Positions 5,309 through 34,939 of a stretch of 37,866 nucleotides of DNA are shown one piece after another (the stretch's first letter is position 1; each line of letters starts with the position of its first letter). The stretch is from an uncultured Erysipelotrichaceae bacterium. GTDB lineage: Bacteria > Bacillota_I > Bacilli_A > RF39 > UBA660. The notes under the pieces are model-generated. The model did not search any database. It saw nothing but the letters and a program-made list of their open reading frames with translations, and had not been told where the DNA came from. The DNA is taken from positions 1 to 37,866 of the forward strand of contig CACXGX010000075.1 in the NCBI GenBank assembly GCA_902767365.1, given 5' to 3'. Both the position numbers and the translations under genes were made by a program.

Positions 5309-7624
5309 ATGGAAAGATATACTCCAAATGTAAATGATGGACTTACAAAAAAGCAAGTAGAAAAAAGAATTAAAGAAAATTTGAATTATACAGATGTATC
5401 AGTTCCTACAAAAAGTATAAGACAAATAGTAAGAGATAATTTTTTTACATTATTTAATTTTTTAAATTTTGGCCTTGCACTTGCCATTGCATTAGTAGGA
5501 GCATATAAAAATATGCTTTTTATTGGTACAGTTATATTTAATATTATCATTAGTACAGTTCAAGAAATAAGAGCTAAAAAAATAGTAGATAAGTTATCTC
5601 TTATTAGTCAATCAAAAGTTGTTGTAATAAGAGATGGAAAACGAAAAGAAATTAGAAGAGAAGAAGTAGTATTAGACGATATAATTGAACTAAAAGTAGG
5701 TTATCAAGTAGTAACTGATAGTATTGTTATGGAAGGCTCATGCTTAGTAAATGAATCATTTATTACTGGAGAAGAAACTCCAATTGAAAAGAAAAAAGGA
5801 GATATGGTTCTTTCAGGAAGTTTTATAACGGGTGGAAAAGTATTAGCTAAAGTAGAACATGTTAAAGATGATAATTATACATCAATTATAAGTAAAGATG
5901 CTAAATACATAAAAAAATTAAATTCAGTTTTAATGATATCATTAAATAAAATAATAAAAGGTATTTCTTTTACCATAGTTCCAGTCGGAATACTTTTATT
6001 TATAAATCAATATTATTACGCTGAAAGTGATTTTAATTTAGCTGTTTTAAATACAACAGCTGCTTTAATTGGTATGATACCCGATGGATTAATATTATTA
6101 ACTAGTACGGTTTTAGCAGTATCAATTATTAGGCTTAGTCAGTACAAAGTTTTAGTACAAGAACTATATTGCATTGAAACACTTGCAAGAGTAGATGTTT
6201 TATGCCTTGATAAAACAGGAACAATAACAGAAGGGGTAATGGAAGTAGTAGATTTTATTCCAAATATAAAATATTCAAAAGAAGAAGTTAAAACATTACT
6301 AGATAAGATATGTCATTCAATTGAAGATGTATCTCCAACAATGACTGCAGTTAGAAATAAATTTGAAACAGCTAATGGTAAACCACTTGAATATAAAAAA
6401 ATAATACCATTTTCCTCTGATAAAAAATATTCAAAAGTTGAAATGGAAGATTTAAATTATTACTTGGGAGCTCCTGAATTTATAATCAAAAATAGTAATT
6501 ATGAAGAATATTCAAAAGATTATAGAACGCTACTTTTAGCAGTAGAAAAAAATGGTAAAAAAAGTCCTGTCGCATTAATTCTTATTCAAGATAAAATAAG
6601 AAAAGAAGCTAAAGAAACATTAAACTACTTTAAACAACAAGGTGTAGATATTAAAATTATTTCAGGGGATAATCCTATTACAATTTCTCAAATAGCTAAA
6701 AGAGTAGGAATTGATAATTATGATAAATATTGTGATTTATCAACAATAAAAACAAAAGAAGAATTGAAAGAAGCATATTTAAATAATACTATTTTTGGCC
6801 GTGTTAAACCTGATCAGAAAAAAGAATTAATTTTGCTAATTAAAAGTCTTGGGCATACAGTTGCAATGACTGGAGATGGAGTAAATGATGTTTTAGCATT
6901 AAAGGAAGCGGATTGTAGTATTGCTATGGCATCTGGAAGTGATGCTGCAAGAAATGTTAGTCAGTTAGTTTTAATGAATTCAAATTTTGATGCAATGCCA
7001 AAGGTAGTTGAAGAGGGAAGAAGATGTATAAATAATATTGGAAGAAGTGCATCACTATTTTTAACAAAAACAATTTATACTATACTTATAGTTTTAATGG
7101 TGTTATTTACTGCCTTCCATTATCCTTTCCATCCAATTCATTTAAGTTTAATGAATTTAATAACAATTGGTGCTCCATCTCTTGTATTAGCACTAGAACC
7201 TAATAAAGAACGTGTTAAAGGTAATTTTTTAGTTAAAATAATAGCTAATGCTTTACCAACAGCGCTTACTGTTTTTTCAACCATTTTCATATTTTTATTT
7301 TTAACAAGAAATTCTGGATTAATCCCTGTTGAGAATTCAACAATAACAGTTATTTTGACAACAATTATTATGCTTATATTTCAATATAAATTGTGTAAGC
7401 CATTTAATACTATAAGGATTATTCTAATGGTTTCAATGTGCAGTATCTTTGCCATTGAAATATTATTCTTTAAAAACTTTTTCACCTTATCTAAATTTGA
7501 TTTAGGAATGTATATTTTAACAATTTCTCTAATTTTAACTGGAATGCTATTATGGAAGGGTTATAACTGGGCTTTTGAATATCTAAGAATGCATAATAAA
7601 AAATTTAATAAAATGATTCAATAA
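5309..7624 (+). CDS. P-type cation-transporting ATPase, CtpE/CaxP-like
   Basis: 771 residues with the full P-type ATPase plan. An N-terminal region is followed by membrane spans near 45-85, then the actuator domain with SFITGEETPIEKKKGD. The membrane cation site GMIPDGLILLTS comes next, then the phosphorylated aspartate D301 in DKTGT and the hinge MTGDGVNDVLALKEAD (about 520-535), and six C-terminal spans. The PDGL (PEGL-like) motif and the short nucleotide-binding domain fit the CtpE/CaxP-type calcium or divalent cation exporters rather than heavy-metal ATPases, as there is no CPC motif or metal-binding N-terminal domain. The ion is inferred. An AGAGGGTG site precedes the start. It is monocistronic, and no metal riboswitch precedes it, in contrast to the gene at 34072. 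Confidence 0.9.
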   Translation: MERYTPNVNDGLTKKQVEKRIKENLNYTDVSVPTKSIRQIVRDNFFTLFNFLNFGLALAIALVGAYKNMLFIGTVIFNIIISTVQEIRAKKIVDKLSLISQSKVVVIRDGKRKEIRREEVVLDDIIELKVGYQVVTDSIVMEGSCLVNESFITGEETPIEKKKGDMVLSGSFITGGKVLAKVEHVKDDNYTSIISKDAKYIKKLNSVLMISLNKIIKGISFTIVPVGILLFINQYYYAESDFNLAVLNTTAALIGMIPDGLILLTSTVLAVSIIRLSQYKVLVQELYCIETLARVDVLCLDKTGTITEGVMEVVDFIPNIKYSKEEVKTLLDKICHSIEDVSPTMTAVRNKFETANGKPLEYKKIIPFSSDKKYSKVEMEDLNYYLGAPEFIIKNSNYEEYSKDYRTLLLAVEKNGKKSPVALILIQDKIRKEAKETLNYFKQQGVDIKIISGDNPITISQIAKRVGIDNYDKYCDLSTIKTKEELKEAYLNNTIFGRVKPDQKKELILLIKSLGHTVAMTGDGVNDVLALKEADCSIAMASGSDAARNVSQLVLMNSNFDAMPKVVEEGRRCINNIGRSASLFLTKTIYTILIVLMVLFTAFHYPFHPIHLSLMNLITIGAPSLVLALEPNKERVKGNFLVKIIANALPTALTVFSTIFIFLFLTRNSGLIPVENSTITVILTTIIMLIFQYKLCKPFNTIRIILMVSMCSIFAIEILFFKNFFTLSKFDLGMYILTISLILTGMLLWKGYNWAFEYLRMHNKKFNKMIQ

Positions 7625-33887: not shown

Positions 33888-33916
33888 TTGACTTTTTATG
33901 TGTTTTGTGGTATAAT
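33888..33916 (+). promoter_or_regulatory. Strong promoter of the manganese riboswitch leader
   Basis: TTGACT (33888-33893), 17 bases, TATAAT (33911-33916), plus TGG making an extended -10. This is the best promoter in the window. The bases from 33813 to 33887 before it show no gene. Confidence 0.85.
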
Positions 33917-33924
33917 TTATAGCA

Positions 33925-34029
33925 TTGAAAGGGAGTAGTTCCATCTTAAAGATGAAGTTATTCAACAATCGGTATAAATATATATGCATATATTTGCCTG
34001 GGTAACTATTAAAGAACAAGACTTTTATA
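33925..34029 (+). promoter_or_regulatory. yybP-ykoY manganese riboswitch
   Basis: Conserved elements appear in order: AAAGGGAGTAG (33928-33938), a CATCT/AGATG hairpin, TCAACAATCGG, a long AU-rich stem with TGCA loop, CCTGGGTAACT and ACAAGACTTT (34016-34025). Stem AGTTA/TAACT closes the central helix. The closing helix is AAAG/CTTT, one pair shorter on both sides than the family's AAAGG/CCUUU, so the two arms have changed together. Family members sense Mn2+. Recognised from memory of the family and of the L. lactis structure. Confidence 0.85.
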
Positions 34030-34051
34030 GAAATATAAGAGCCTTTTTTTT
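34018..34051 (+). terminator. Expression-platform terminator of the manganese riboswitch
   Basis: AAGACTTTTATA (34018-34029) pairs with TATAAGAGCCTT (34034-34045) around loop GAAA with one mismatch, followed by eight T. Its 5' arm includes the 3' strand of the aptamer's closing helix, so the two folds exclude each other. Confidence 0.8.
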
Positions 34052-34071
34052 AGACTCTTTAGGAGGAAAAT

Positions 34072-34860
34072 ATGAAAAAAATTATTAAGGACAACATAGT
34101 ATTTACAATAATAACAACAATTGTATTTACAATAATAATTTTAGCATCAAGTATTACAACAATAAATAGTGGAGAAGTTGGAGTAAGAGTAAGATTTGGT
34201 AAAGTTATTAATCAGTCAACACATGAAGGAATTAATTTTCAAATTCCATTTATTGAAAGAATTGATAAATTAAATGTTAAGGTACAAAAATCAGAAGTAA
34301 CTACTAATAGTTCTAGTAAAGATTTACAAGACGTTGATATGAGTGTTGCAGTAAACTTTAGAATTGATTCAAATAAAGCCGTTGATTTATATAAAAATGT
34401 AGGTAAAAATTATGAATCAATTATTTTAACACCAGCAATTCAAGAAAGCATAAAAGCTGTAACATCAAAATATACTGCAGAAGAGTTAATAACAAATAGA
34501 AGTGAAGTAAGTATTAAATGTATGGAAGAACTATCAAAAAAAGTTGAAAAATATGGATTATTAGTAAATGATTTTAACATTACAGATTTTAGTTTCAGTA
34601 AAGAATTTGAAAAAGCAATAGAGGAAAAACAAGTAGCAGAACAAAAAGTATTAACTGCAAAACAAGAATTGGAAAAAGAAAAAATAGAGGCTGAAAAGAA
34701 AATAGTTAAAGCAGAAGCAGAAAAGAAAGCTAATGAGCTTAAAGAAAAATCATTAACAGATAAAATTATTAAAGAAAAATTTATTGATAAATGGAATGGA
34801 GAACTACCAAAAGTAACTGGGAACAATGCTATTTTAGATATATCAAGTTTAGTTAAATAA
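34072..34860 (+). CDS. SPFH/prohibitin-like (band 7) membrane protein
   Basis: 262 residues. A single N-terminal span (about 9-28) is followed by the SPFH core: INSGEVGVRVRFGKVINQ, EGINFQIPFIERIDKLNVKV, QDVDMSVAVNFRID and ESIILTPAIQESIKAVTSKY, which match prohibitins and HflC. A coiled coil (about 170-235, EEKQVAEQKVLTAKQELEKE) precedes a short tail. Such proteins form ring-like cages that organise membrane regions and control FtsH-type proteases. A strong AGGAGG site (34061-34066) precedes the ATG. The gene is preceded by a manganese riboswitch and terminator, an unexpected regulator for this family, and is followed by its own terminator. Confidence 0.92.
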   Translation: MKKIIKDNIVFTIITTIVFTIIILASSITTINSGEVGVRVRFGKVINQSTHEGINFQIPFIERIDKLNVKVQKSEVTTNSSSKDLQDVDMSVAVNFRIDSNKAVDLYKNVGKNYESIILTPAIQESIKAVTSKYTAEELITNRSEVSIKCMEELSKKVEKYGLLVNDFNITDFSFSKEFEKAIEEKQVAEQKVLTAKQELEKEKIEAEKKIVKAEAEKKANELKEKSLTDKIIKEKFIDKWNGELPKVTGNNAILDISSLVK

Positions 34861-34861
34861 T

Positions 34862-34888
34862 GAAGAGTTTCAAAAAACTCTTCTTTTT
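34862..34888 (+). terminator. Terminator of the SPFH gene
   Basis: GAAGAGTTT, loop CAAA, AAACTCTTC, then T. Confidence 0.9.
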
Positions 34889-34939
34889 TATTGCAAATCA
34901 TACTTAAATAATTTATATTAAGAGTGAATGAGGGATAGT

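Follow-up and report, generated by a model that had tools for sequence, protein, structure and literature searches.

Manganese riboswitches are known for their control of exporters, and prohibitins and HflKC scaffold FtsH-type proteases. In crystal structures of yybP-ykoY riboswitches, phosphates of both loops, L1 and L3, coordinate Mn2+ together with the N7 atom of an invariable L3 adenosine; this Mn-specific ligand is A41 of the L. lactis RNA (UCA41AUUC) and A48 of the X. oryzae RNA (ACA48UACU; PMC6754395). In the L. lactis riboswitch, Mn2+ stabilises helix P1.1 and prevents termination (PMC11087558). Some yybP RNAs precede genes that fit Mn2+ sensing poorly, and the class may include RNAs with other metal specificities (Sherlock and Breaker, PMC7266159).

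The stretch of DNA analysed here (37,866 nucleotides, referred to as the window) is chromosomal and belongs to a 1.6-Mb genome of an uncultured member of the Bacilli in 134 contigs (G000), several close relatives of which come from goat gut. It contains a leader of about 150 nt between a promoter and an SPFH open reading frame, with an aptamer and a terminator that together span 33922-34051:

33888-33916, + strand: sigma-70 promoter, TTGACT-N17-TATAAT with a TG extension, matching the consensus at 11/12 positions
33924-34029, + strand: yybP-ykoY-type aptamer, as matched by covariance model R1
33926-33931, + strand: 5' strand of P1, the switch helix, pairing with 34022-34027
33932-33937, + strand: L1, GGAGUA, the metal-site loop, invariant in all SPFH leaders (role according to PMC6754395)
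33938-33941, + strand: 5' strand of P1.2, GUUC (the non-transport form), pairing with GAAC at 34014-34017
33942-33954, + strand: P2 hairpin, CAUCU-UAA-AGAUG, with covarying pairs
33956-34007, + strand: P3 (AGUUAU/GUAACU), L3 (UCAACAAUCGG/CCUGG) and P4
34014-34027, + strand: 3' strand of P1.2 (GAAC), joining AAGA, and 3' strand of P1 (CUUUUA)
34018-34051, + strand: intrinsic terminator, with a hairpin at 34018-34045 and a tract of 8 U at 34044-34051; the whole 3' strand of P1 lies inside it
34061-34066, + strand: Shine-Dalgarno sequence AGGAGG, read from the sequence
34072-34860, + strand: gene for an SPFH/Band_7 protein (262 aa) of the prohibitin type that has a single membrane segment at its N-terminus
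34862-34890, + strand: terminator after the SPFH gene

The near-consensus promoter, the terminator and the SPFH target gene named in a preliminary description of this locus are thus all in place, the last with a Band_7 match (PF01145) at E 1.2e-36. From the promoter, transcription is expected to start at about 33922; the -10 form that the window shares, TGGTATAAT, precedes most of the relatives' leaders as well. Because a terminator closes the unit at 34862-34890, the riboswitch appears to serve the SPFH gene alone. The surrounding genes are ordinary chromosomal ones (trmD, a SpoU methylase, a signal peptidase, ABC transporters and an L,D-transpeptidase).

The leader had been described as a yybP-ykoY aptamer, with an RF00080 score proposed as a check. 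That score did not materialise: RF00080 gave no match to the leader at its gathering threshold or at E<=10. Scans of the window, its own genome and 146 relatives found this model to be insensitive in the lineage. Of six leaders that precede mntP or Ca/Na-exchanger genes in other families, it recognised five, with E-values of 4e-6 to 2e-3, below its cut-off. We therefore used a covariance model, R1, made from five mntP and CaCA leaders taken elsewhere in the class (four that RF00080 recognises at those E-values, plus the mntP leader L067), with no sequences from the window's family. Two exporter leaders of that family (L153 and L175) are not listed by RF00080 at E<=1 and score 58-60 bits with R1, so the miss reflects a weakness of RF00080 for this lineage. 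R1 matched the window leader, on which it had not been trained, at 33.0 bits (E=6.8e-5 in 67 kb), its sole credible match in the window. Elsewhere in the window it gave only noise of 12-16 bits, and the P-type ATPase gene at 5309, said earlier to lack such a leader, indeed has none. The SPFH leader of a related genome, G011, likewise absent from the training set, scored 46.3 bits; those of G011, L185 and L186 cover 46-57 bits and the exporter leaders of the window's family 54-60 bits. By homology and motif we assign the window leader, though divergent, to the yybP-ykoY class, the class that the preliminary description had proposed.

Four further R1 matches (L098-L101, E 0.08-0.67) were judged false by sequence, and weak Rfam matches in the leader (mir-3149, rox2 and opuB) were put down to chance. 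BLASTN with the leader returned mostly AT-rich noise, yet it located the leader in G011. This last sequence is also matched by Rfam RF02617 (SSRC10) at E 0.0011, and RF02617 has matches in L002, L175, L185 and L153. Its consensus, GGGAGUAGC...CGUCA...GCGAGACC followed by a terminator, resembles that of a yybP-ykoY leader, although the family is entered as a Streptococcus sRNA.

Both parts of the metal site are present in the window leader. L1 reads GGAGUA, and in L3 (UCAACAAUCGG) A33967 occupies the place of A48 and is equivalent to A41; the adenosine is found in all SPFH leaders. Since L1 and this adenosine are kept, Mn2+ is, by homology, most likely the ligand of the SPFH leader.

The expression platform overlaps P1. 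The 3' strand of P1 lies within the 5' arm of the terminator, by 6/6 nt in the window and by 6-8 nt in the other leaders, making the two structures mutually exclusive, and the arrangement is the same as in L. lactis. Ligand binding should thus turn the SPFH gene on, which bears out the ON logic predicted earlier from sequence. With P1 and P1.2 enforced, the aptamer fold is stable in all seven SPFH-locus leaders. The window terminator (-6.8 kcal/mol vs -11.5 to -14.5 in relatives) is weakened by one A.C mismatch, which predicts a leakier switch. At low metal, the terminator would take up the 3' strand of P1 and transcription would halt upstream of the SPFH gene. Mn2+ would dock L1 against L3, hold P1.2 and P1 together and so block the terminator, and the resulting read-through, in the cell as well, would allow the prohibitin-like protein to be made. 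SPFH rings may then scaffold membrane proteases or other membrane proteins, beside a separately riboswitch-controlled exporter, and the likeliest purpose would be quality control of membrane proteins in Mn2+ excess. We think it probable that the leader is a divergent yybP-ykoY transcriptional ON switch of the Mn2+ class whose SPFH product serves membrane quality control under Mn2+ excess. The sequence comparisons establish the homology of the aptamer, its covariation, its conservation before SPFH orthologues and the overlap of P1 with the terminator; Mn2+ as the ligand, read-through in the cell and the role of the protein are inferences.

Absence of the leader before the SPFH genes of relatives had been set beforehand as grounds for rejecting the proposal. 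Leaders of the window type precede SPFH orthologues in five other genomes or loci, with proteins 74% (G011), 74% (L185), 70% (L186), 67% (G396) and 56% (G213) identical to that of the window. G396 carries the leader twice at this locus (L167, contig C3): one copy precedes a 138-aa open reading frame and the next, about 600 bases away, precedes the SPFH gene; five leaders of the yybP type occur in this genome. In G011 a 48-aa membrane open reading frame lies between leader and SPFH gene. When the seven SPFH-locus leaders were aligned with MAFFT, the 28 pairs were paired in 95.4% of cells and 8 of them had changed on both sides, while slid controls of the same alignment were only 33-45% paired. 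Across 45 distinct family leaders, covariation extends to all 26 model pairs, in an alignment that was fitted to the model and is for that reason a weaker test of covariation than the MAFFT alignment. P1.2 and most of P1 show no both-side changes within the SPFH leaders and do show them family-wide. A different SPFH type, in an operon of NfeD and slipin genes, has the leader in G023. The link between leader and SPFH gene is not obligatory, as leader-free orthologues exist (G060, G068, G081, G084, G050, G139 and L187/L188). In the tree, leader-bearing SPFH genes fall in two subclades, so there have been repeated gains of the leader or frequent losses.

We searched 386 family genomes with a loose pattern, filtered the many chance matches by R1 scoring and obtained some 45 leaders. 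These yybP aptamers split into two forms by helix P1.2, and the window's SPFH case is one instance of a larger pattern in which the same switch form precedes many non-transport genes. Leaders upstream of Ca/Na exchangers and P-type ATPases occur in the window's own genome and in its family; one of them, L164 (G000:C35:34232-34322), precedes a calcium/sodium antiporter (TIGR00367) and has the exporter form. When P1.2 is UAAC/UAAU, the target is a Ca/Na exchanger or P-type ATPase in all 8 leaders with a gene identified as an exporter. The other leaders of this type precede a membrane protein whose homologue follows the P-type ATPase in L153 (L178) and a protein of unknown family (L157), or are cut by the contig end (L162). 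When P1.2 is GUUC/GAAC, GUUC/GAGC or GUCC/GGAC (about 35 leaders), none has a recognisable transporter downstream. The association of form with exporter target gives a Fisher p of 7e-9, a value that overstates independence because sister species are included.

The genes behind second-form leaders encode prohibitins, NfeD with slipin, lipoproteins (a crude scan finds a lipobox in eight), an AdoMet-decarboxylase-like protein, in three genomes a protein that resembles deoxyribosyltransferases, a more distant peptide deformylase and proteins with no Pfam match. Behind nine second-form leaders (L136, L137, L138, L141, L142, L148, L158, L161 and L169) the first open reading frame encodes small lipoproteins or exported proteins, families with no Pfam match that share the motifs FxPGEHxI...PEGY and HAHKY. 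The nucleoside 2-deoxyribosyltransferase-like genes (PF15891) follow L154 (G029), L176 (G010) and L192 (G067), and the AdoMet-decarboxylase-like protein (228 aa) lies downstream of L166 (G419). Defined strictly, the second form is present in 5 of about 54 genomes of the family vs 1 of about 341 others, and the reversed control of this strict motif gave 0 matches in 395 genomes. In the single genome outside the family, G648, the GUUC/GAAC leader precedes mntP and an exchanger, which argues that the second form can serve Mn control.

Tentatively, then, the family may have split one metal riboswitch into an exporter form and a form with GUUC/GAAC or GUCC/GGAC in P1.2, present in up to five copies per genome and running a separate regulon of envelope and stress proteins, perhaps at another threshold or with another ion. 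We regard the arrangement in the window as real, and it may belong to a Mn regulon other than efflux among uncultured Bacilli of gut and rumen.

The GUUC/GAAC form could instead be a specificity variant that senses another ion, such as Ca2+, or an envelope signal, which would place the SPFH gene outside the manganese regulon. The completeness of the P1.2 split (exporters in 8/8 UAAC/UAAU leaders vs 0 of about 35 with GUUC or GUCC) would fit such a change, as would the absence of the GUUC form before transporters within the window's family and a set of targets made up mostly of lipoproteins and unknown proteins. Changed metal specificity has been foreseen for some yybP RNAs (PMC7266159), and for the three-way-junction yybP of Streptococcus mgtA a review (PMC9495176) gives tighter in vitro binding of Ca2+ than of Mn2+. 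Three GUUC leaders (L138, L148 and L149) have lost the invariant L3 adenosine, which is seemingly replaced (CAAUG, CAACU), and are candidates for changed ion specificity. However, P1.2 is a helix and supplies no metal ligand, the SPFH leaders keep L1 and the L3 adenosine unchanged, both types of L3 occur with both forms of P1.2, and the G648 leader stands before mntP. We consider a change of ligand at the SPFH leaders unlikely, and the reading as a Mn2+-class ON switch is kept.

The SPFH protein itself is closest among solved structures to mitochondrial prohibitins (prohibitin-2, E 1.3e-30), ahead of HflC, HflK and QmcA, and it stays below the NCBIfam equivalog cut-offs for HflC and HflK (hflC, 43.6 bits vs 134.4). 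Among phage families it has a match to phrog_200 at 1e-52, and close homologues 73% and 63% identical to it lie on two viral contigs (L198 and L199), one of which (L199) also carries Erf and DNA methyltransferase genes. Neither viral homologue has the leader, and a search of the viral collection with the strict leader motif gave 0 matches; travel with phages was for this reason rejected for the leader and kept for the protein. It is plausible that prohibitin genes have been exchanged between phages and hosts and that chromosomal copies were put under the switch.

These leader-free viral homologues, together with the phrog_200 match, would also suit a genuine yybP switch with a passenger gene: a phage-type prohibitin that came to lie behind a duplicated promoter-riboswitch cassette and gains little from Mn control. 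Near-identical leader copies before unrelated genes in one genome (L137/L138) point the same way. Against this, the leader, with its covariation, is retained in six genomes and in two SPFH subclades, ahead of orthologues that share 56-74% identity, and the NfeD and slipin operon of G023 has it too; we find a passenger gene improbable. A chance resemblance, or a plain ligand-free terminator or attenuator, could account for the missing RF00080 score in such AT-rich sequence, and is scarcely credible given an R1 match obtained without training on the leader, its conservation before orthologues, its covariation and the empty strict-motif control.

If the Mn2+-class ON switch acts on the SPFH gene as proposed, metal excess is answered by membrane reorganisation as well as by pumping, and a function-poor bacterial SPFH family gains a concrete candidate for an inducing signal. 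The conservation of leader and SPFH gene in related species hints at a manganese response wider than metal export. The leaders also offer natural variants for studying what determines ion choice and threshold in the yybP aptamer, and RF00080 overlooks a whole lineage of yybP leaders. In the literature searched, which covered few subscription papers and is weak evidence of absence, no report joins yybP-ykoY or a Mn riboswitch with SPFH or prohibitin genes.

Compared with yybP-ykoY RF00080 (L. lactis yoaB, X. oryzae), the window leader has the same L1 (GGGAGUAG), invariant L3 adenosine, layout of P1, P1.2, P2 and P3 and 3' AAGAC, and its transcriptional terminator overlaps P1 as in an ON switch. 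It differs in falling below any Rfam score, in having no helix between P3 and P1.2 (a three-way junction) and in its target: a Mn or cation transporter downstream is usual for the class, not defining, and here the leader is followed by an SPFH gene with its own terminator. The yybP riboswitch of Streptococcus mgtA, an RNA of which SSRC10 (RF02617) looks like another example, shares the junction type (PMC9495176) and the position of the terminator; it controls a Mn/Ca P-type ATPase, whereas the window leader precedes a prohibitin-like protein. That protein resembles prohibitins and HflKC in its Band_7 domain, N-terminal membrane segment and helical, charged C-terminal region, and it differs from them in being a bacterial protein of 262 aa, below the HflC and HflK equivalog cut-offs and with homologues on phage contigs. 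Altogether, what is new relative to these systems is the prohibitin target and the split of P1.2 into two forms.
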